Part shown: positions 1,400 through 13,569 of the stretch, piece by piece
How positions within the stretch are numbered: position 1 is the first letter of the stretch
Layout of the letters: the number at the start of each line of letters is the position of its first letter
IMG/VR virus record: IMGVR_UViG_3300042731_001380
Span: 1-39,408 of that record
Reading direction: 5' to 3' (one strand)
Origin: a virus
Length of the DNA: 39,408 nucleotides
The notes under the pieces: model-generated
The model's database searches: none
Told to the model about the DNA's origin: nothing
Seen by the model: the letters and a program-made list of their open reading frames with translations, nothing else
Position numbers and translations under genes: made by a program

Positions 1400-3146
1400 T
1401 CCAGTTTTACAAGAAATACATCTTGCGGATAATATAAACGCAGCGATATTAAAGATTAATCAGAACTTCGATGAGATCGAAGCTGGTAACATCAATATTA
1501 ATATCGACTCTGCAGATATTACTAATATCGTTAATAATATATTAGACTCAGATTATTTCCTAAGTGTAATCGACTCTGATTATATTCAGCAGTTGTTATT
1601 GAATATGGAGTTGAACTTTGATGACTCTCAGGTTCAAGCCAATGCGACAAATATATTAGAGTTATACAACCGCATCGATATTACTGACTCAGATGTTCTT
1701 GTACTTGCAAGTCAAATACAACAGGTAGAAGCGGACCTTGCAAACTTAACACTTGACGGTATCGATTCTGCGTTTTTAGAATCTGCAGTTGCGGGTGCGA
1801 TGTCATCATTGACTGCTAGAATAGATGTTAATAGCGATGGACTAACAATACTTGGTGAGGCTGTAGATTCAGTCAGTGCGTCATTAGTTCTTATCGATAG
1901 TGAATTGGGCGGTTTAGATGGTCGCATTACTGGAAACGCAAATGCAATTTCTACACTAACCTCTCGTATCAATATCAACTCAGACCAGATTGATATACTG
2001 GGTCAGTCAGTAGATTCTATTCGTACAGACCTAAACAATATTGTATTGGATGCAATCGACTCTGACTTAATTATAGATGCAGTTGCAGAAGCCCAGAACG
2101 CATTAAGTGCACGAATCACTGTAAATAGTGATGGCATCACTTCCTTGGGTTCACAGATAACTACCCTTAATGCAAACCTTAGTGCGATCAACTCCGACAC
2201 TAACGAAAGAATTGATCTAAACGCAAGTGCAATCTCTTCAGTAATCGCACGAGTCAATATAAACTCAGATGAACTGTCAGCGATAGCGACTGCGACGGAT
2301 TCTTTGAGTGTTAGTCTGGATCAGATCCTTGATTCTAATGGTAACGTAATCATTTCACCTGCCGACGTTGAGGCTGCGGCAGCAGATGCGTTCAGTCAAG
2401 TGTATGCACGAATAGAAGCAGACAGCGCACGTTTAACGATAATGAGTGGTCGAGTCGATAGTTTTGAAACCGAATTACTTGCCACTCAGGGTGATTTAGA
2501 CGCAGAGATACTAGCGACTGGCCTTGCACGTCAACAACTTGATAATCGAATTTCAATCAACAGTGATACAATCTCTAACGTTAGTTCTTTGGTCACTGAA
2601 CTAGATAGTACTCTTTTGGTTCGTGACGCACAAGGTAATGTGACAAGCACTGCATACGCAGGTGCGGTACAAGACCTAAGAACTGAGGTGGTTGCAGAAG
2701 ACGGACTGATCCAGAGTGCACTATCGAGTTTTGAAACTACAATCGAAGCGATGATTGATAGTTCTAGGGCTGCGATCACTACAGACTACCAAACTTATGT
2801 AGATAATGCAACTGGTAATACTACCGCAACATGGCGTTTAAACGTAGAGGCAGGTGACACAACTGACCCTTACGTTGCGGGTATCGAGTTGTCGAACAAC
2901 GCTCAGGTTGCAGACCTAGTCATCACTGCAGATACGTTTAAGTTGGTAACCCCGACTGCGACAGATGGTTCTGGTGGTATCAGTCCATTTAGTGTAGACG
3001 CAACTGGAGTGAAACTATCTAACGCAACAGTTACCGGAGGAATAGATATTGGTACAGATCAGACGGGTGATCGCATGGAGATCACCAATGATAGGATTGA
3101 TATCTTCGAAGGATCTTCACGTAGGGTTCGATTAGGAATGTTATAA
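1392..3146 (+). CDS. Tail fibre protein with repeated helical stalk (584 aa)
   Basis: This is a probable trimeric fibre. The N-terminus (LQEIHLADNINAAILKINQNF) is a likely virion-attachment helix. Residues from about 60 to 470 consist of recurring units with the core pattern ARIxVNSDGxTxLG followed by a DSxxxxL helix, typical of coiled-coil fibre shafts. The C-terminal 110 residues lose this pattern (TATWRLNVEAG, then GGIDIGTDQTGDRMEITNDR and a final RRVRLG). They resemble the C-terminal domain of host-specificity tail-tip proteins. Asp and Ser are unusually frequent because of the NSD motif. The start overlaps the preceding small gene, so the fibre and its partner are probably co-translated. 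The receptor is unknown. Confidence 0.75.
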   Translation: MTSPVLQEIHLADNINAAILKINQNFDEIEAGNININIDSADITNIVNNILDSDYFLSVIDSDYIQQLLLNMELNFDDSQVQANATNILELYNRIDITDSDVLVLASQIQQVEADLANLTLDGIDSAFLESAVAGAMSSLTARIDVNSDGLTILGEAVDSVSASLVLIDSELGGLDGRITGNANAISTLTSRININSDQIDILGQSVDSIRTDLNNIVLDAIDSDLIIDAVAEAQNALSARITVNSDGITSLGSQITTLNANLSAINSDTNERIDLNASAISSVIARVNINSDELSAIATATDSLSVSLDQILDSNGNVIISPADVEAAAADAFSQVYARIEADSARLTIMSGRVDSFETELLATQGDLDAEILATGLARQQLDNRISINSDTISNVSSLVTELDSTLLVRDAQGNVTSTAYAGAVQDLRTEVVAEDGLIQSALSSFETTIEAMIDSSRAAITTDYQTYVDNATGNTTATWRLNVEAGDTTDPYVAGIELSNNAQVADLVITADTFKLVTPTATDGSGGISPFSVDATGVKLSNATVTGGIDIGTDQTGDRMEITNDRIDIFEGSSRRVRLGML

Positions 3147-3149
3147 TAT

Positions 3150-4046
3150 ATGTTTTATGTTTTATCTAGCCACAACATTTATGCACTCAAGCGACAGTTT
3201 AAAACACTACCAATAGATAAGACGACAGTAATAATAAATACGACTCACATTGAGTTTCGACAACAGGCGATATCTTACTGTGAGGAAAATAAAGTTCGTT
3301 ATTTTGTAACAGAGAGTGACGGCACTGCGGCCACAGGAAAGAATAGTTTCCTTGACAGGTTCGAGGAAGATGGTGTACCATATGCAGTGTTGATAGACGG
3401 TGATGATTACCTCACTAAACGTGGGGTGGTCATGTATCAACGTTTGGTAGAACAGAAAGACGCACCGGATGCGTTAGTGTTATTTAATCAGGTCAACATC
3501 ACTGCACAGAACCATCATCTTGCAGAAAGAAGTCAAGACCCGATCAGACCACACGAAGATCCAAATACACTGACCTCTCGATACGTCCAACAATCAGTAG
3601 TAGAAGATTGGGACAAACTAGCGGATGGACGGTTAGTGGCCGAGAATGTACCGGACATTACTGTAGAAGAAGTAGAGATGTTTAAAAAATATATCTCAAC
3701 TCTTCAACATTCAATGGGTATAGATGAGTTAAGTACTCGACTTGTGTTTATGTCAAGAAAGGTCTTGCCCTATAGATTTAAAAGTTTAACGGTAGGAGAG
3801 GATACTCTTCAATACCTTGAACTGAAAGATGCGCACGAACGCGGTGAATTAAAGTTGGTTGCGCACGATGAGAAGTTCCCGACGTACATGTATGATGTAC
3901 GTATATCGGGTATTGCATTAAAAGAAAGTCAAAAGGATCAGGGTAAAGGCTTCATTGAGTGGATGCAGATCCTTTTGTCAGAGATGGAAAGTTTAAAAGA
4001 GAATAATAAGTTACATGATACACGTGTACCTATATGGGAGTTTTAA
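3150..4046 (+). CDS. Glycosyltransferase-like protein, GT-A fold (298 aa)
   Basis: The N-terminal half resembles family 2 type glycosyltransferases, which move a sugar from a nucleotide-sugar donor to an acceptor. A beta-strand start (FYVLSSHN) is followed by a GKN motif at residues 63-65 and a DGDDYLT motif at 83-89, whose D83/D85 would be the metal- and nucleotide-binding DxD. The C-terminal half (from about 150) is helical and not recognised. It lies three bases after a fibre gene and directly before two small tail-type genes, so a virion fibre is a plausible acceptor; modification of host-surface glycans is the alternative. Neither acceptor nor sugar can be read from sequence. Confidence 0.6.
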   Translation: MFYVLSSHNIYALKRQFKTLPIDKTTVIINTTHIEFRQQAISYCEENKVRYFVTESDGTAATGKNSFLDRFEEDGVPYAVLIDGDDYLTKRGVVMYQRLVEQKDAPDALVLFNQVNITAQNHHLAERSQDPIRPHEDPNTLTSRYVQQSVVEDWDKLADGRLVAENVPDITVEEVEMFKKYISTLQHSMGIDELSTRLVFMSRKVLPYRFKSLTVGEDTLQYLELKDAHERGELKLVAHDEKFPTYMYDVRISGIALKESQKDQGKGFIEWMQILLSEMESLKENNKLHDTRVPIWEF

Positions 4047-5225: not shown

Positions 5226-5248
5226 AATTTTATTTGGAGATTTATAAA

Positions 5249-5722
5249 ATGCATCCTAAAGTCGCCTTGATCAACGAAAATGGCGTAATTGAAAGAACTG
5301 ACATGGACAATGGTCGCTGGCCAGAAGACGGTGAGTCGTTAGACGGTCGCCGTGTTCAACGTATCTATGACCTAGAGGGTCTGGAAGTTAGTGACTATAT
5401 CTCAACCCGTGTGTGGTCAGATGACGCGTACGCGTTTGTTGCGGTCGATCGTCGTCCAAATATGTACGCAGATTTTGACTGGTCTACAGAACAATGGGTA
5501 TGGGACACTGAACTTATTCTTAACGAGATTCGAACTGAACGTGACCGTCGTCTTATGCAGACTGACTGGGCACTAATGGTTGACACACCTCTCTCTGACG
5601 AACAACAGGCAGAGATGAAATTGTATCGTCAAGCCCTTAGAGATTTTCCATCCACTCTTGATATGACTCAAGTGATGAGTCTGCAAGATGTCGAAGATTG
5701 GCCTGTACACCCTTCGATCTAA
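5249..5722 (+). CDS. Tail fibre assembly chaperone-like protein (157 aa)
   Basis: The C-terminal third carries the pattern RDRRLMQTDWALMVDTPLSD followed by YRQALRDFP. This is typical of phage tail-fibre assembly chaperones (the Pfam tail assembly chaperone family; from memory). Such proteins help fibres fold or trimerise. The N-terminal part (HPKVALINENG onward) is a small beta domain. I chose the ATG at 5249 over an in-frame TTG at 5234 because the TTG lies inside the Shine-Dalgarno stretch TTGGAGA, which is eight bases before the ATG. The gene sits directly before the 1911-residue repeat protein and has its own late promoter, so that giant is the likeliest client. Confidence 0.7.
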   Translation: MHPKVALINENGVIERTDMDNGRWPEDGESLDGRRVQRIYDLEGLEVSDYISTRVWSDDAYAFVAVDRRPNMYADFDWSTEQWVWDTELILNEIRTERDRRLMQTDWALMVDTPLSDEQQAEMKLYRQALRDFPSTLDMTQVMSLQDVEDWPVHPSI

Positions 5723-5725
5723 GTA

Positions 5726-5733
5726 TATAAATA
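5726..5733 (+). promoter_or_regulatory. T4-type late promoter box
   Basis: Exact TATAAATA just after the chaperone stop codon. It is the first of two late boxes upstream of the giant repeat gene, and a hairpin lies between the two. Confidence 0.7.
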
Positions 5734-5751
5734 GGAGTATTGATTGGTGGT

Positions 5752-5774
5752 GCGCAGATAGTGGATTTCTGCGC
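5752..5774 (+). terminator. Hairpin between two late promoters (possible terminator)
   Basis: A seven-base-pair stem (GCGCAGA at 5752-5758 with TCTGCGC at 5768-5774) encloses a nine-base loop. The following sequence is only moderately T-rich, so it may end transcription of the chaperone gene weakly or act as an RNA processing or stability structure in the leader made from the promoter at 5726. Confidence 0.4.
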
Positions 5775-5784
5775 GTCAATTTAT

Positions 5785-5792
5785 TATAAATA
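5785..5792 (+). promoter_or_regulatory. T4-type late promoter box
   Basis: Exact TATAAATA 48 bases before the GTG start of the giant repeat gene. With the box at 5726 it gives that gene two late promoters, consistent with high late expression of a virion protein. Confidence 0.75.
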
Positions 5793-5839
5793 AAACCATC
5801 GTAAAACCCTTTTTTCATTCACTATAGAGAGCGATAATT

Positions 5840-8800
5840 GTGTCAGCATCGAGCATTCCACTAAAAATTAAGAATTCGAATGGTGACCTACAGGAATTCA
5901 CTCCGACGGAAGAAAACTATCTTGCGTTCGCAGTGGGACAAGCATTGGCGTCTGCAGCGTCCAATGATGTCGGTAACATAAGTTTAACAGGTAATGTGAA
6001 CATTGGTTCTTTCGTTGACACATTCTACAACGAGGCGACAGGAACCCACCCAGCTTCACAGATCACTTCATCCACAACTACAACCACCCTTACTCAGGTC
6101 GGTGGTAGCGCAGATGAATCCGGCGCAAACTTTGTTCGTCCTATAGGATACTATGACGGTACTAATCCTGGCTTCTACGAAATGGTAGACCCAGATGTAA
6201 CCGCACTTGCCAATCGTGTTCTAAGTAATCTTGCACAAAACGATTACGTCGGGACATTTAAACTCGCATCAACCAGCCCAGGCGCGGACTATACTCTGTT
6301 CATCGCAGGTGTATTCCAAGATACGCGTGGTGATGGGTCATCTACTGTTTACAACATCTATCTACGCAACAACATGTCTGCAATCGCCGCAGTACGTCCT
6401 GTTGCAACGAAATACGATGTTAACGGAGACTTCGACGGTTTCCAAGAGATGACTGATGCTCAGATCCAATATACTATTGGTCAACGTATTAAAACATTAC
6501 GTGCAACTGCAGGGAACATTGGTTCATACCAGTTACGTTCATCTGCACAAGGTGCACCTACAGCCCCAGGCACTTGGAGATCTGTAGGTTCTGCGATCAA
6601 CACTACTAGACAGATCACAGACGTATCTTACTCACGTATCCGTAACTCGGCCTACGTTCGTACACGCGTTTCTGCATACACCCGCGACAGAACTTCGACT
6701 TATACTCGTGTTTCTACTCGCACTAGTACTCGTGACTTTGCAGGAAACTACGTAGGTAACTACACTCGCGATTTCGCCGGTAACTATTCACGCAACTTTG
6801 CAGGTGAATATGTCGGTGATTTCATTGGAGAGTACACACGTACTCGCCCGTCTGCATATACTCGCGATCGTGTAACTAACTTCTCACGCACGTTTACTGG
6901 CGAATACATTCTAAACCGTCAGTCAACTTATACTCGTGTACGTCTACAGGCGTTCACTGGTGCGTTCACTGGTTACTACACTCGCGCACGTGTTTCTGTA
7001 TACACTCGCAATCGTATCACTGACTTCACTGGCACTTACACTCGTACTCGTACTTCGACGTACGCTCGTGGCCGTGTGTCTACTTACACTGGTACGTATT
7101 CACGTAACCGTGTATCTGCGTATGCAGGAACTTATTCACGTACTCGTGTTTCCTCTTATAGCGGCACTTACGCACGTAACCGTATCTCTGCATATATTGG
7201 AACTTACTCACGTTCGTTCTCTGGTCAGTACACTCGTTCTTTCCAAGGTAACTACACAGGTGAGTTTACACGTACTCGTACGTCATCTTACTCAGGTACT
7301 TACGCTCGCACTCGTACTTCAGCGTACGCAGGAACTTACGGTCGCAACTTCGTAGGAAACTACAGCCGTGGGTTTGCAGGTAACTACGTTGGTGAGTTTA
7401 CACGTACTCGTACTTCGACATTTGCAGGGACCTATTCTCGTGAGCGTATCAGTACTTACACTGGTACTTACGCACGTGATTTCGTAGGTAACTATACTCG
7501 CAACTTTGCAGGAAACTACTCACGTAACTTTACTCGTGGTCGCGTTAGTTCATTCTCTGGTACTTACACACGTAACCGTGTATCAACGTACTCAGGTACT
7601 TACTCACGTAACTTCACTGGTAACTACGCTAGAAACTTCGTAGGAAACTACTCGCGCAACTATGCACGTACTCGCGTATCGTCTTACGCTGGAACTTATG
7701 CGCGTACTCGTGTTTCTGCGTACTCTGGAACTTACTCACGTACTCGCGTATCAGCTTACGCAGGTACTTACTCACGCACACGTGTCTCTGCATATGCGGC
7801 TGACTATACTCGTGTTCGTGCGACTAACTATACTCGCGATCGCGTTACTAACTTCGCTGGCATCTTCTCACGTGCACGTGTATCTACTTACACTCGCAAC
7901 CGTGTGACTAACTTTGCTGGTAACTTTGTTGGTAACTACGCTCGCAACTTTGTTGGAAACTACTCACGTAACTTCGTGGGTAACTATTCTCGTGCATTCG
8001 CAGGGAACTATGTTGGTAACTACGCACGTACTTCTACTCGTACGTCTACCCGTACTCGTTACTCAGCTTACGCACGTACCTCAACTAGAACTCGCTCATC
8101 TGCATACACTCGTGATCGCGTAACTAACTTTGCCGGTAACTTCATCGGTAACTACGCACGTGATTTCGTCGGAGACTTCGTAGGAAACTATTCACGAACT
8201 TTCGCTGGTAACTTTGCAGGTGACTTCGTAGGTAATTATACAACTACCTTCACTGGTAACTTTGTCGGTAACTACGCTCGTAACTTTGTTGGAAACTTTG
8301 CTGGTGACTTCGTCGGAAACTACGCAACCACATTTACTGGAGACTTCGTGGGTAACTATGCTCGCGGTTTCGTTGGTAACTATGGCCGTAACTTCGTCGG
8401 TAACTACACCAGAAACTTTGCAGGTAACTTCGTAGGTAACTACGCACGTGGCTTCGTAGGAAACTATGCAGGTAACTTCGTTGGTGATTATGCGCGTACT
8501 CGTGCAACCAACTACACTCGTAACCGTGTCTCTGCGTACTCACGTACTCGTGCGACTAACTATACTCGTACTCGTAACTCCGCTTATTCACGTACTTCAG
8601 TTCGTACTCGTTACTCTGCGTATGCACGTACTTCGACTCGTACGTCAACTCGTACTTTAAGTTACACTCGTACATTGTACTACACTGGTAACTACGCTCG
8701 TGCGTTTACTCGTGATCGTACTCAGACATTCACTGCAACTGGTACCTATACTCGTACTCTATACTACGCGGGTGACTTTACTGGTAATTATACCCGTAAT

Positions 8801-11575
8801 GTTACTTACACTGGTAACTATACCCGTACATTGACTTACACTGGCGACTTCGTAGGTAACTACACTCGTGGTGTTACTTACACTGGTAACTATACTCGTG
8901 GTGGACCAGTAACATATATTGGTGACTATGTTCGTTACCAGAACCCGTACGATACTGTAAACTACTATGTTGGTAACTACGTAGCTGGCGCTAACTTTAC
9001 TGGCGACTTCGTAGGTAACTACGCGGGCGGTGGTGCATCGACTCGTGTATCTGCATACTCTCGTATGTACAACTTCAACGTATACTTCTATACTCGTACG
9101 TTGTCGTTCGGTACTACTACTTACTTTACTCGTACATCGACTCGTACTTCAGTAGGTACAGGTACGGCTTACACTCGTGTGTCTACTCGTTCAGCTGCAG
9201 TGTACTACGCTGGTAACTATATCGGTACTGTTACTGAGACTTACACTCGTAACCGTGCAGCGACATTAGACTACACTCGTACTCGTGTCACTAACTACAC
9301 TGCAACAGGTACGTATACTCGTAACCGTGCGGCGACACTAGACTACACTCGTAACAGTACTCGTACTTCAACCAATACTGGTTACTACACACGTACATTG
9401 TACTATGTCGGCAACTTCGTAGGTAACTATGCGCGTAACTACGCCGCAGACTACACTCGTACTGGTTACTACACACGTACTGGATACTACGCAGGCGACT
9501 TCGTAGGTAACTATGCGCGTGGGTTCGTCGGTGATTACGTAGGTAACTATGCTCGTTCATTCGTGGGTGATTACGTAGGAAACTTCGTAGGAAACTACGC
9601 ACGTACGTTTGTTGGTGATTACGTTGGTAACTTTGTGGGTAACTACACTCGCACATCAACCCGCACATCAACTCGTACTCGTAACTCTGCATACTCACGT
9701 ACTCGTGTGACTAACTACGCTGGTGCATACACAAGATCACGTGCATCCGCATATTCACGTACTCGTTACTCAGCTTACGCACGTACTCGTATCACTAACT
9801 ACGTTGGCGACTTTACTCGTACATCAACTCGTACTTCTACTCGCAACCGTTACAGTGCATACGCTCGTACTCGTGTTACTGACTACGTTGGTAATTTTAC
9901 TCGTACTTCTACTCGTACATCAACCCGTTCACGTGGTTCTGCGTACGCACGTACACGAGTAACTAACTACGTCGGTAACTTTACTAGAGATCGCGTAACT
10001 CAGTTCGCTGGTAACTTCGTAGGTAACTACAGCCGTAACTTCGCAGGTGACTTTGTAGGAAACTACGCTCGCGCATTTGCAGGAGACTTTGCAGGTAACT
10101 TCGTTGGTGAGTACACTCGTACTTCTACTAGAACTCGTTACAGTGCATACGCTCGTACTCGTGTATCTGCATACAGCCGTACTCGTGGTTCCGCATACAC
10201 TCGTGACCGTGTAACTAACTTCGCGGGAGACTTTGTTGGAAACTATGCACGTACATTCGCTGGAAACTACTCACGCAACTTTGCGGGTAACTTCGTTGGC
10301 GATTACGTCGGTAACTTTGCAGGAAACTACGTTGGAAACTACACTCGTGACTTCTCTGGTCAGTACGTAGGTAACTACACACGTAACTTCTCTGGTCAGT
10401 ACACTGGTACTTACAACCGCAACTTTGTCGGTGAGTACACTGGTACTTACAACCGTAACTTCGTAGGTAACTATGCACGTGCATTTACTCGCACTCGCGC
10501 ATCTGCCTACTCTCGTGTACGTCCATCATCATATGCGGGAACTTACTCTCGTACATTCGTTGGTGAGTACACTGGAACTTATAACGCAACTTACACTGGT
10601 AACTACGCTCGAGCGTATACTAGAACACGTGTATCAGCTTACTCACGTGCGCGTAACTCAACGTTCACAGGAACTTACTCACGTTCATTCTCTGGTCAAT
10701 ACACTGGAACGTATGCACGTGATTACGTAGGTAACTATGCGACTGACTTTACACGCAACCGTAATTCTGCATACACTCGTACTCGACTATCAACTTACGC
10801 GGGTAACTACAGCCGTGACTTCGTTGGTGAGTACACTGGTGCATACACTCGTGACTTTGCGGGCAACTACTCTCGCAACTTCGTAAGAACTCGTGTTGAA
10901 ACTTACTCACGCGACCGTGTCTCAACTTACACAGGAACCTACAACCGTGGATTCGCTGGTGAGTACACTGGAGCGTATACTCGCGACTTCTCTGGTCAGT
11001 ATGTCGGTAACTACACTCGCGGCTTTGCGGGAGAGTACACTGGCACTTACAACCGTACGTTCGCAGGTGAGTACACTCGTGACTTCACTGGAAACTACAC
11101 TAGACAGTTTGCAGGTGACTTCGCTGGTAACTACACTCGCACGTTCGCTGGAGAATACGCAGGAACTTATAACCGCGACTTCGTAGGCGACTTTACTGGT
11201 AACTATGCACGTACGTTTGCAGGTAACTACATCCGCAACCGTGTCTCTGCATACGCTGGTAACTTCGTAGGTAACTACACTCGTGACTTCATCGGTAACT
11301 ACTCGCGTAACTCAGTAGACACATTTGCACGTACTCGTGTATCTGCATACTCACGTCTACGTACATCTGCTTACTCAGATGTTTACGGACGTACTCGTGT
11401 CTCTACTTACGCAGGTAACTACACTGGTGACTACGCTCGTGACTTCACTGGTAACTACTCACGTGATTTCACTGGTAACTACAGTCGCGCATTTGTCGGT
11501 AACTATGTTGGTGCAACTATCCAGCCAGCGTTGCAGACAATCGAGTCATATACATTATACGTAAGGGTTGCATAA
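5840..11575 (+). CDS. Giant tetrapeptide-repeat virion/adhesin-like protein (1911 aa)
   Basis: Residues 1-263 are a non-repetitive head (SIPLKIKNSNGDLQEFTP onward), likely the attachment domain. From Tyr264 almost to the end the protein is made of four-residue units whose first position is Tyr or Phe, or else Arg or Ser: examples are FVGN, YTRT, RVSA and STRT. The phase is unbroken over residues 264-967. It is irregular over about 968-1188 and unbroken again over 1189-1892. A 19-residue tail ends in YTLYVRVA. I saw no Cys, Lys, Trp or His in the repeat blocks. The start is GTG at 5840, with an AGAGAG stretch upstream. Two late promoters precede it, a fibre chaperone-like gene lies upstream and a strong terminator follows. 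A long fibre or adhesive filament is inferred. The exact function is unknown. Confidence 0.75.
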   Translation: MSASSIPLKIKNSNGDLQEFTPTEENYLAFAVGQALASAASNDVGNISLTGNVNIGSFVDTFYNEATGTHPASQITSSTTTTTLTQVGGSADESGANFVRPIGYYDGTNPGFYEMVDPDVTALANRVLSNLAQNDYVGTFKLASTSPGADYTLFIAGVFQDTRGDGSSTVYNIYLRNNMSAIAAVRPVATKYDVNGDFDGFQEMTDAQIQYTIGQRIKTLRATAGNIGSYQLRSSAQGAPTAPGTWRSVGSAINTTRQITDVSYSRIRNSAYVRTRVSAYTRDRTSTYTRVSTRTSTRDFAGNYVGNYTRDFAGNYSRNFAGEYVGDFIGEYTRTRPSAYTRDRVTNFSRTFTGEYILNRQSTYTRVRLQAFTGAFTGYYTRARVSVYTRNRITDFTGTYTRTRTSTYARGRVSTYTGTYSRNRVSAYAGTYSRTRVSSYSGTYARNRISAYIGTYSRSFSGQYTRSFQGNYTGEFTRTRTSSYSGTYARTRTSAYAGTYGRNFVGNYSRGFAGNYVGEFTRTRTSTFAGTYSRERISTYTGTYARDFVGNYTRNFAGNYSRNFTRGRVSSFSGTYTRNRVSTYSGTYSRNFTGNYARNFVGNYSRNYARTRVSSYAGTYARTRVSAYSGTYSRTRVSAYAGTYSRTRVSAYAADYTRVRATNYTRDRVTNFAGIFSRARVSTYTRNRVTNFAGNFVGNYARNFVGNYSRNFVGNYSRAFAGNYVGNYARTSTRTSTRTRYSAYARTSTRTRSSAYTRDRVTNFAGNFIGNYARDFVGDFVGNYSRTFAGNFAGDFVGNYTTTFTGNFVGNYARNFVGNFAGDFVGNYATTFTGDFVGNYARGFVGNYGRNFVGNYTRNFAGNFVGNYARGFVGNYAGNFVGDYARTRATNYTRNRVSAYSRTRATNYTRTRNSAYSRTSVRTRYSAYARTSTRTSTRTLSYTRTLYYTGNYARAFTRDRTQTFTATGTYTRTLYYAGDFTGNYTRNVTYTGNYTRTLTYTGDFVGNYTRGVTYTGNYTRGGPVTYIGDYVRYQNPYDTVNYYVGNYVAGANFTGDFVGNYAGGGASTRVSAYSRMYNFNVYFYTRTLSFGTTTYFTRTSTRTSVGTGTAYTRVSTRSAAVYYAGNYIGTVTETYTRNRAATLDYTRTRVTNYTATGTYTRNRAATLDYTRNSTRTSTNTGYYTRTLYYVGNFVGNYARNYAADYTRTGYYTRTGYYAGDFVGNYARGFVGDYVGNYARSFVGDYVGNFVGNYARTFVGDYVGNFVGNYTRTSTRTSTRTRNSAYSRTRVTNYAGAYTRSRASAYSRTRYSAYARTRITNYVGDFTRTSTRTSTRNRYSAYARTRVTDYVGNFTRTSTRTSTRSRGSAYARTRVTNYVGNFTRDRVTQFAGNFVGNYSRNFAGDFVGNYARAFAGDFAGNFVGEYTRTSTRTRYSAYARTRVSAYSRTRGSAYTRDRVTNFAGDFVGNYARTFAGNYSRNFAGNFVGDYVGNFAGNYVGNYTRDFSGQYVGNYTRNFSGQYTGTYNRNFVGEYTGTYNRNFVGNYARAFTRTRASAYSRVRPSSYAGTYSRTFVGEYTGTYNATYTGNYARAYTRTRVSAYSRARNSTFTGTYSRSFSGQYTGTYARDYVGNYATDFTRNRNSAYTRTRLSTYAGNYSRDFVGEYTGAYTRDFAGNYSRNFVRTRVETYSRDRVSTYTGTYNRGFAGEYTGAYTRDFSGQYVGNYTRGFAGEYTGTYNRTFAGEYTRDFTGNYTRQFAGDFAGNYTRTFAGEYAGTYNRDFVGDFTGNYARTFAGNYIRNRVSAYAGNFVGNYTRDFIGNYSRNSVDTFARTRVSAYSRLRTSAYSDVYGRTRVSTYAGNYTGDYARDFTGNYSRDFTGNYSRAFVGNYVGATIQPALQTIESYTLYVRVA
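6629..8740 (+). repeat. Tetrapeptide (12-bp) repeat block 1
   Basis: This stretch encodes residues 264-967 of the giant protein as 176 consecutive tetrads in one phase. Checked anchor points Tyr264, Phe696 and Leu940 all fall on the same phase. Codons vary freely at third positions (for example TTCGTAGGTAAC and TTTGTTGGAAAC for FVGN), so the repetition is sharper in protein than in DNA. Confidence 0.85.
9404..11515 (+). repeat. Tetrapeptide (12-bp) repeat block 2
   Basis: This stretch encodes residues 1189-1892 as a second in-phase run of 176 tetrads. It is shifted by one residue relative to block 1 because of the irregular 221-residue segment between them. Compared with block 1 it has more FSGQ, YTGT and YNRN units towards the end. 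Confidence 0.85.
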
Positions 11576-11602
11576 ACCACACCTATAGTGTATAATATGT
11601 GA

Positions 11603-11632
11603 AAGTGGGTCAGTAATGGCCCACTTATTTTT
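11603..11632 (+). terminator. Intrinsic terminator after the giant repeat gene
   Basis: AAGTGGG at 11603-11609 pairs with CCCACTT at 11620-11626. The stem can be extended inward by two pairs and is followed by a T-rich ATTTTT. It lies 28 bases after the stop codon. Confidence 0.8.
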
Positions 11633-11679
11633 GTACTATATACATTTGAATTGAAGATCTTTTTTTGGAGAATGACTTA

Positions 11680-12141
11680 ATGAGTTACAGAAGATGGATG
11701 GATAACGCGTTCTGGGAGACAGATGCAAAAGAACAACTAAACTGCATCCTAGAAATGGAAGACGATGTTGGTCGAGTTACCCGTCAGGTTATGTTATTAA
11801 ACAGGTTCGATAAGGAAGGTAATCCTAACGAACTTTTTGATGAGGTGGTATCATCACTAGGTGAGGATGTCATCGACAAAGAAACCGAAGATCGTACCGT
11901 TCGCAAGAAGGCCGAAGCGGAAGAAGAAAAACAACGCGACTTAGAACATAGGAAGGCGCGTAAACTAGAGAAACTGTTCAACTATAAGTTGGAAGCGTTC
12001 GAGGTCGATGAGATCAAGAACTCTAAGAACCGCAAGTTGAAAGGTAAGTTACGTCGTGCGAAGTCTCGCATCGAAGTTGACTTATACTCTATTATGATTC
12101 TTCAGGAAGTGCTAGAGGCGGAAGAGAATGGAACAGAGTAA
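11680..12141 (+). CDS. Conserved-looking charged phage protein, unknown function (153 aa)
   Basis: I do not recognise a named family. The protein has an N-terminal segment rich in aromatic and acidic residues (YRRWMDNAFWETD) and a middle acidic part. A long, strongly charged helix of alternating Glu and Lys/Arg runs over residues about 70-130, probably a coiled coil. The ATG at 11680 is chosen over an in-frame TTG at 11665 because the TTG is part of a TTGGAG ribosome-binding site nine bases upstream of the ATG. No TATAAATA box lies between the terminator at 11603 and this gene. The 3' end overlaps the glycosyltransferase gene by 14 bases, which links it to the enzyme pair downstream. A structural or assembly role is possible. 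Confidence 0.55.
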   Translation: MSYRRWMDNAFWETDAKEQLNCILEMEDDVGRVTRQVMLLNRFDKEGNPNELFDEVVSSLGEDVIDKETEDRTVRKKAEAEEEKQRDLEHRKARKLEKLFNYKLEAFEVDEIKNSKNRKLKGKLRRAKSRIEVDLYSIMILQEVLEAEENGTE

Positions 12142-12862
12142 AGGTTTTGTAATCGTCGCGTCACAGAAACATAATTTTTATCTGTACGCGATTAACTTGG
12201 CGGAATCAATTCGAGACTTCTATGAGCCAGAAGACGAATGTAAGATCTGTCTAGTTACAGAAGAAAGGTTTTTAGACGACCGTGGTCGTGAAGTTGCAGA
12301 CGATATTCTTTTATGTGACGACCACTATCGTGCAAAGTTGTGGGGTATGGCCAAGTCACCTTACGACTTGACAATGTATATTGACGCTGACATGGAATGT
12401 GAGCACGAAGACATCGTCAAATGTTGGGATGAGATGAAGGACCACGATGTGGTATTCTCTGCACTCACAGACGATCGTTCTTACATCTACGCAGAGCGAG
12501 ACTTTGATACACCAGAAGGTCCTCAGAAGTTCTCTTTATGCGGTGGGGTATGTTTATATGATATGTCTAAGCCGATCGTGCGAGAGTTTATGCAAGATTG
12601 GTGGGACTTAACGTTCAGACAGATGAACGACACTTGGTGGCCTAAGGGGTATGCGGACAGTCTCAAGTCTTGGGATCAGTTCTCACTCTGGTGGTTGACT
12701 GAGAGAGAAGAAAAATATAAAGACCTCAAGGTCGGTATCTTTGATGACGATTTGAGGTGGAACTATTACAACGCCTTTAATTGGGCAATAACACAACCCG
12801 AAGGACCTGTGATCTTACGTCACTTCTCTGCAGGGTTAAATAAGGACACACCAATCGTATGA
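12128..12862 (+). CDS. Glycosyltransferase, GT8-like (244 aa)
   Basis: The sequence shows the layout of GT8-like glycosyltransferases, which use a nucleotide-sugar donor and a metal ion. It has a beta-strand start (GFVIVASQ), a DxD motif at 86-88 within TMYIDADME, and CGGVCLYD at about 138-145. SWDQFSLWW follows at about 181-189, where the family has a conserved Asp-Gln, and HFSAG comes near the C-terminus (His232), matching the usual His-x-x-Gly metal ligand region. It overlaps the genes on both sides (14 bases upstream, an ATGA junction downstream), so it is probably made together with the oxygenase-like protein. Acceptor unknown. Fibre modification is inferred from location between giant fibre genes. 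Confidence 0.65.
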   Translation: MEQSKGFVIVASQKHNFYLYAINLAESIRDFYEPEDECKICLVTEERFLDDRGREVADDILLCDDHYRAKLWGMAKSPYDLTMYIDADMECEHEDIVKCWDEMKDHDVVFSALTDDRSYIYAERDFDTPEGPQKFSLCGGVCLYDMSKPIVREFMQDWWDLTFRQMNDTWWPKGYADSLKSWDQFSLWWLTEREEKYKDLKVGIFDDDLRWNYYNAFNWAITQPEGPVILRHFSAGLNKDTPIV

Positions 12863-13569
12863 CACAGGTAAATGATCAATATCTGAAGCATATCGAAGTC
12901 AACAATCCAGAACTTCTGGATATTCTTGATGAGTATGCGAAGTTGCACAAGTGGGATGGGTTTCTAAAGAACGCACACTGCACTGCAAAGGAACACGCAC
13001 GTCAACGTCCTTATTACGTTGGCGAAAAGTACATGAAGGAAATCATGGCGATGGGTACTGGGCACGATGGCTTCCCAGAACATCTGCTTGGTTATAACTT
13101 CAAGATCTCTGATCGTGGTCACTTAATGTTTGAGAAAGACGCAGACCCACTATTCCGTCGCGACTTTACTCATCACCTATCTGACCTAAACGATCGCATG
13201 ATGAACTTCTTGTCTACTAAACACAATGCATTGTGTGCAGTATATCCACCAGAAGGTTTCATCTCGTGGCATAACAACCAGAACGCACCTGGCTTCAATC
13301 TAATCTTCTCGTACTCAGAGGATGGTCAGGGTTGGTTCGATTATGTTCATCCAGAGACAAAGGAAGTGATCCGTTGTCAAGATGAGCCAGGGAAGTGGAC
13401 ATGTAAGGCTGCTTACTTTGGTTCGTTCGAGGAACCAGACAAGAGACTATACCATGCGGCATCGTCAGGTGGCGAGTGGAGAACTACTGTTTCTTATATC
13501 TTTGATTGGACTGACGCGGGTGCAGACCTACGCGAGATGGTCCTAGAAGACATTTCTGCAAAATATTAA
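12859..13569 (+). CDS. 2OG-Fe(II) oxygenase-like protein (236 aa)
   Basis: The C-terminal half has the layout of a 2-oxoglutarate/Fe(II) dioxygenase double-stranded beta-helix. YPPEGFISWHNN gives the first metal His (138). It is followed by GFNLIFSYSEDGQGWF, CKAAYFG, a second His (199) in YHAAS and an Arg (208) in WRTTVSYIF that would bind 2-oxoglutarate. The position after His138 that usually holds Asp or Glu is Asn (H-N-N). A paralogue at 37979 shares this. The start overlaps the glycosyltransferase stop (ATGA). Substrate unknown; hydroxylation of a virion or host protein is one possibility, and loss of catalysis cannot be excluded. Confidence 0.6.
   Translation: MTQVNDQYLKHIEVNNPELLDILDEYAKLHKWDGFLKNAHCTAKEHARQRPYYVGEKYMKEIMAMGTGHDGFPEHLLGYNFKISDRGHLMFEKDADPLFRRDFTHHLSDLNDRMMNFLSTKHNALCAVYPPEGFISWHNNQNAPGFNLIFSYSEDGQGWFDYVHPETKEVIRCQDEPGKWTCKAAYFGSFEEPDKRLYHAASSGGEWRTTVSYIFDWTDAGADLREMVLEDISAKY

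Follow-up and report, generated by a model that had tools for sequence, protein, structure and literature searches.

A phage tetrad-repeat protein with two mirror-complementary arms, a candidate out-and-back fibre

A 1911-residue protein of a marine T4-like myovirus is built mainly of two repeat blocks of 704 residues each, and these blocks appear to be reverse-complementary at the protein level, in the manner of the two strands of a DNA hairpin. This reading is well supported by comparisons of amino acid sequence within the protein and across its relatives. By the same comparisons, the equal length of the blocks is no accident: they are mirror-complementary, a point absent from an earlier note on this DNA. 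We infer that the protein is likely to form a giant antiparallel beta fibre that runs out and back, with its N-terminal head and C-terminal tail at the base and its variable middle at the tip. The gene was found in a 39,408-base virus record, referred to here in its full length as the window, which carries portal, protease, scaffold, major head protein, sheath, tube, terminase and neck genes of a T4-like myovirus. The features that enter the argument are these:

5234..5722, plus strand: tail-fibre assembly chaperone-like gene (Phage_tail_APC; PF16778, E 1.7e-16; phrog_4912, E 1.3e-14)
5723..5839, plus strand: intergenic region before the fibre gene, carrying two TATAAATA motifs
5840..11575, plus strand: whole fibre gene (1911 aa, GTG start, net charge +147)
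5840..6628, plus strand: N-terminal head, predicted fibre base (residues 1-263)
6629..8740, plus strand: arm 1 (residues 264-967, 176 tetrads), predicted to lie antiparallel to arm 2
8741..9403, plus strand: middle, the likely receptor-binding end (residues 968-1188), a distal stem with broken phase followed by the hypervariable tip
9404..11515, plus strand: arm 2 (residues 1189-1892, 176 tetrads), reverse-complementary to arm 1 by the pairing described below
11516..11575, plus strand: C-terminal tail and stop (residues 1893-1911, ending YTLYVRVA), predicted at the base beside the head
11665..12141, plus strand: conserved 158-aa gene directly after the fibre gene, recognised by synteny
12128..12862, plus strand: conserved gene, tentatively a glycosyltransferase (DxD-like motif; weak Glycos_transf_2 matches, synteny)
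12859..13569, plus strand: conserved gene, tentatively a 2-oxoglutarate/Fe oxygenase (H138-x-N140 ... H199 ... R208 invariant in the alignment)

The earlier note had described a 1911-residue protein with a repeat of period four, and the open reading frame at 5840-11575, the autocorrelation and the phase counts bear this out. The autocorrelation that it had proposed, expecting a period of four, stands at 0.58-0.63 for Tyr and Phe at lags 4, 8, 12 and 16. Its block boundaries (residues 264-967 and 1189-1892) proved correct by phase count, each block comprising exactly 176 tetrads, all in phase. The leading residue of the tetrad is Tyr, Phe, Arg or Ser in 99.4% of each block, with one exception per block. 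Tyr and Phe occupy a single phase in 129 of 134 instances in the first block and 140 of 146 in the second; the maxima in 2000 shuffles were 50 and 54. By composition the arms are without histidine, and the protein is strongly basic, whereas the products of neighbouring genes are acidic. Nearly all close homologues likewise begin with GTG. Tetrad classes recur also with periods of 11 tetrads (44 residues) and 3 tetrads, in the window arms and in the homologues L007, L062 and L020; the periodicity at 11 tetrads is strong in some homologues and weak or absent in others.

The central evidence lies in the relation between the two blocks. The mutual information between the tetrad classes of arm 1 and those of arm 2 reaches z = 21.3 at offset 0 in the antiparallel orientation and stays below z = 3 at all offsets in the parallel one. 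At the level of residues, position 1 of a tetrad is matched with position 3 of its partner and position 3 with position 1, such that arm 1 residue i stands opposite arm 2 residue 2155-i. Across this register runs a near-absolute code, with Arg or Ser opposite Gly, Tyr opposite Arg, and Phe opposite Ser, Thr or Gly. Arg at position 1 faces Gly in 63 of 65 cases and Arg, Ser or Thr in none, and Ser at position 1 faces Gly in 16 of 16. Taken together, the tetrads led by Arg or Ser have Gly opposite in 79/81 and Arg, Ser or Thr in 0/81; the minimum count of such forbidden pairs was 29 in 20000 tetrad shuffles, 17 in 20000 shuffles of 11-tetrad blocks and 24 in circular shifts. Tyr is opposite Arg 120 times (65 expected) and Phe opposite Ser or Thr 61 times (18.5 expected). 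Among the 352 pairs of the coded face, not one is Arg-Arg, Ser-Ser, Gly-Gly or Arg-Ser.

The face formed by positions 1 and 3 is 27% Arg with less than 0.5% acidic residues, a composition that points to a face either exposed or lined by anions. A constant side-chain volume across the arms was considered and was not seen; instead, charge is anticorrelated between them (-0.41, vs 0.00 +/- 0.15). This correlation and the avoidance of Arg by Arg across the arms together suggest that the spacing of Arg charges, with Tyr-Arg contacts, would set the code, and Gly opposite Arg may leave space for the Arg side chain across the strand. The earlier note had supposed that positions 1 and 3 share a face, on which Tyr or Phe would lie beside Gly or Arg. 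That company of residues was correctly anticipated, but by the register found here the neighbours sit on the opposite arm, in reverse order.

The mirror order extends beyond the window. Scans of IMG/VR yielded 186 loci in 65 sequence clusters, and the sole homologue covering the query among 50,697 phage records was WJE88074.1 of Phage C48C1 (OQ984149, Kyanoviridae). Among 84,980 bacterial and archaeal genomes, neither the repeat nor a relative could be confirmed. A match in Enterococcus phage Riverwalk was rejected as a chance resemblance to a non-coding tandem repeat. In some 20 homologues the arms range from 49 to 220 tetrads, and within each protein they are equal (49/49, 69/69, 71/71, 85/85, 129/129, 132/132, 145/145 and 220/220, beside 176/176 in the window) or nearly so (192/193, 142/144, 156/159 and 160/168). 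Given such wide variation in length among homologues, this agreement within each protein suggests that the arms pair. The antiparallel peak of mutual information lies at offset 0 in eight homologues (z 8.5-25.9), at -1 in L040 and L115, and at +2 in L100, the repeat of which is divergent. L100, which has a truncated N-terminus, also contains a separate 10-residue repeat, YEGLYERQQDIT-like, at residues about 1330-1760, beyond the mirror arms.

For an out-of-sample test, a log-odds score was learnt from the window alone and slid over all mirror centres of the other clusters. Most full-length homologues have one dominant centre by this score. The best centre exceeded the next by 194 to 1.1 in L007, 152 to -1.9 in L062, 108 to 6 in L148, 77.5 to 6 in L162, 42.7 to 0.4 in L125 and 115 to -1 in another homologue. 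In close homologues the mirror sum is always the length plus 238 to 251, as predicted by a stem that spans from the end of the head to the start of the C-terminal tail.

The code itself recurs when 31 homologues are pooled with the window excluded (6100 pairs); the homologues are related, so that the pooled counts are not independent, and clusters share at most a quarter of 12-mers by construction. Arg is opposite Gly in 1070 of 1088 cases (433 expected) and opposite Arg in 2 (390 expected), Ser is opposite Gly in 276 of 284, Tyr is opposite Arg 1933 times (1077 expected) and Phe is opposite Ser or Thr 1012 times (315 expected). The window-trained score found no clear mirror in L112 and L090. 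In L185, L186, L190-type relatives and the longer genes of L168 and L170, the mirror signal is weak or absent. Since it fades in more distant relatives, we claim the pairing rule for the close family only. Some phages carry the genes as tandem pairs (L168, L170, L176, L190, L187, L179, L185 and L186), which have a common head type, repeat and C-terminal motif and a weak mirror signal.

The two arms also change together. Comparison of the window protein with L005, to which it is 90% identical, gives a difference of +176 residues in arm 1 and +156 and +20, again 176, in arm 2; the comparison with L007 gives 176 fewer residues in each arm. L133 carries insertions of similar size at the base of both arms, rich in Arg and Ser in arm 1 and in Gly in arm 2. 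Among in-register aligned pairs, 16 compensating changes were counted where about 4 were expected, such as Tyr-Arg to Phe-Thr; the closest pairs of proteins (>90% identical) hold few countable changes of this kind. As a counter-example, 24 arm 2 residues of L009 are missing from the otherwise identical L011, possibly because of a misassembled repeat. The stem of the C48C1 protein is divided into four nested stretches, and the mirror register resumes past insertions in arm 2, as it would past bulges in a stem. These insertions, of 329 and 660 residues (residues about 1803-2131 and 2401-3060 of 3347 aa), are mostly non-repeat, are confined to one arm and lie opposite short gaps in arm 1.

Outside the arms, the parts of the protein differ in their conservation. 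Head sequences are 27-83% identical across 51 sequences, and an AF2 model of the head reached a mean pLDDT of 87.4 and a pTM of 0.81. Foldseek was run on this model and returned nothing below E 0.1 from the PDB (best E 0.18) or BFVD (best E 0.27). By eye, a motif (…LQE[MF]T…, YEMVD…, FQEMTD…) seems to recur about three times in residues 1-263, which suggests internal repeats. The middle is the segment that changes fastest between close homologues, with a hypervariable tip around residues 1021-1130 of the window protein; pairing is detectable in residues 968-1020 and gone in 1021-1060. L018 and L019 are 93% identical over the head, 84-96% over the arms and 52% at the tip. The corresponding values for head and tip are 78% and 49% between L009 and L017, and 97% and 73% between L066 and L077. 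Several homologues have non-repeat segments in the middle. At the other end, almost all full-length members retain the YTLYVRVA motif.

We interpret these patterns as follows. The chain would leave the N-terminal head and extend as arm 1, 704 residues of beta-strand tetrads; very probably it runs out to the variable tip and back, in that it would turn there and return as arm 2, such that the head and the C-terminal tail meet at the base. The arms, taken to be antiparallel beta-strands from their alternation, register and composition, would lie side by side, residue i beside residue 2155-i in a fixed register. On one face, each position 1 would sit opposite a position 3 of the other arm, and the code would keep the register over the full length. 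Three such hairpins probably assemble into a trimer, forming a six-stranded tube on the phage tail, at the far end of which the variable tip would meet the host. That the function is to hold a receptor-binding tip at a distance is made likely by gene position, by the chaperone and by the variability of the tip; the protein is presumably part of the virion. At 3.3 A per residue, 704 residues would give a length of at most about 230 nm, which strand tilt would shorten. Regression for a second strand register gave hints at -2 and -4, none distinct; closure of the tube and the trimeric state are thus without sequence support of their own, and we make no claim about tube shear. An AF2 model of the short homologue L115 at full length (10-sequence alignment) had a pLDDT of 28.6 and was discarded. 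We lean, by a narrower measure, towards the broader view that this is a class of fibrous protein, in which a near-digital pairing code keeps two long arms of a single chain in register, length is changed by matched blocks, and tip and side domains are exchangeable modules.

The sequence data would fit a partner arm from the same chain or from a neighbouring one. In a domain-swapped version, arm 1 of one subunit would pair with arm 2 of the next within the trimer. Phage fibres are commonly intertwined, and covariation reports register and not the identity of the chain, so the mirror statistics agree with this arrangement as well. However, the turn of L115 is very short (about 10 residues) and the equal arms come from a single gene, for which a hairpin within one chain is the simplest explanation; we regard the swap as possible, if unlikely. 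More doubtful is a two-stranded beta-ribbon, monomeric or dimeric, or an adhesive filament rich in Arg and Tyr without the order of a trimeric tube. Such a structure would accord with the regression, in which no distinct second interface was found, and with a coded face so rich in Arg and so poor in acid that it would be hard to bury. Counter to this, the gene follows a tail-fibre chaperone within a tail-fibre region, and known fibres of this kind are trimers. A disordered or solenoid Tyr/Arg repeat, its blocks independent and of equal length by chance, would accord with the low AF2 confidence for L115 and the lack of a known fold, but it is most improbable in view of the pairing code and of arm lengths that match, exactly or nearly so, in about 20 homologues differing widely in size. 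Finally, we reject an origin of the mirror order in nucleic acid (an inverted repeat or mRNA hairpin) or in DNA duplication, the chance of which we consider negligible even for a gene so rich in repeats at the DNA level, because codons are less complementary, in antiparallel, at the mirror register (0.183) than at other in-phase registers (0.194 +/- 0.007), the pairs Arg-Gly, Tyr-Arg and Phe-Ser are non-complementary at the middle base, and an inversion of DNA would destroy both reading frame and code.

The preferred reading, a hairpin that runs out and back within one chain, has a likeness among known fibres. In the 2010 structure of T4 gp37 the chain reportedly extends to the tip and then returns, ending with its C-terminus at the collar, and it is this topology that the window protein would share, with antiparallel pairing over 704 residues per arm indicated by sequence statistics. 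The distal tip of gp37 is a trimer, a six-stranded antiparallel beta needle with a receptor-binding head (PMC7291167, PMC9659904), and the needle binds seven iron ions via histidines (PMC6957217). That needle is short and holds iron, whereas the window arms are far longer, at 704 residues each, follow a period-four code of Tyr, Phe, Arg and Ser, and contain no histidine and hence none of the HxH motifs of gp37. No PDB sequence match and no Foldseek match of the head model was found that would point to a relationship, and for these reasons we do not class the window protein as a gp37-type member.

Other likenesses are partial. WJE88074.1 of Phage C48C1, annotated as hypothetical, resembles the window protein in its head (67.7% identity), repeat, upstream chaperone and downstream genes, and differs in its length of 3347 aa and in the non-repeat insertions on the arm 2 side. 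Cyanophage [V/L]TG[N/D] tetrads (for example in S-RIM2 AOO06811.1), also from structural proteins of marine T4-like phages, have a period of four with Gly at position 3 and Asn or Asp at position 4, but identity is 28.7% over a short stretch, Tyr and Arg are absent, and the head is another one. Pentapeptide repeats and left-handed hexapeptide beta-helices are likewise short beta-forming repeats of strict period; their period is five or six, however, and they are single solenoids without reverse-complementary arms. PHROGs (E up to 0.001) and Pfam (E up to 0.1) contain no family for the whole fibre protein, Pfam and NCBIfam none for the head, and the PDB no sequence match for the protein or for the head profile, in agreement with the earlier note, which could match the repeat to no named family. 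The open-licence literature searched contained no account of such a repeat, and we found no described protein family with the Arg/Ser-Gly, Tyr-Arg, Phe-Ser/Thr pairing rule. Among the searches made, neither the pairing code nor the head fold appears to have a described counterpart.

If the model is correct, either arm of this natural protein stem could largely be predicted from its partner, which would offer a directly testable rule for joining matched pieces into very long beta fibres whose length can be chosen. The model would also account for the lengthening of phage fibres in evolution, by matched changes in both arms, and would make fibre architecture readable from sequence alone in uncultured marine phages. 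The family is large and unannotated (186 loci, 65 clusters, one named phage), and the tip of each member may be located via its mirror centre.

Gene order supports a role as a tail fibre in the broad sense, with an assembly chaperone adjacent and a position among the tail genes of a T4-like phage. A chaperone homologue lies immediately upstream of the fibre gene in many relatives. The earlier note had proposed, from gene position, a virion filament or adhesive, and this is still the best reading in light of the upstream chaperone, the T4-like structural block and the conservation of the fibre gene in many related contigs. The TATAAATA motifs of the upstream intergenic region match what we take to be the T4-like late-promoter consensus, and we presume them to be promoters by that consensus only. 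After the fibre stop, at 11585-11640, an inverted repeat rich in G+C runs into T residues and resembles, by eye, an intrinsic terminator.

Three genes downstream (11665-13569) occur in the same order in about 50 loci and are retained by nearly all relatives whose sequence extends to this point; in these, the 158-aa gene begins the set 15-142 bases 3' of the fibre gene. For the family of the gene at 12128..12862, Glycos_transf_2 matches were weak, in 7 of 24 members, with a best E of 0.001 that falls below the cut-off. The product of 12859..13569 has no match in Pfam, NCBIfam or the PDB, and the spacing of its motif leads us to guess at a 2-oxoglutarate/Fe oxygenase. We would guess, further, that the three-gene set modifies the Tyr/Thr/Ser-rich arms of the fibre. 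An L-shaped-fibre-assembly PHROG gene follows the set. At 3150-4046 of the window, upstream of the chaperone, a second glycosyltransferase-like protein (IDGDD motif) has no family match above the cut-off. Among the genes of Phage C48C1 (OQ984149 26148-59506) are tRNAs for Thr, Asn, Leu, Asp, Tyr, Ser and Ala, several of which serve residues abundant in the fibre.
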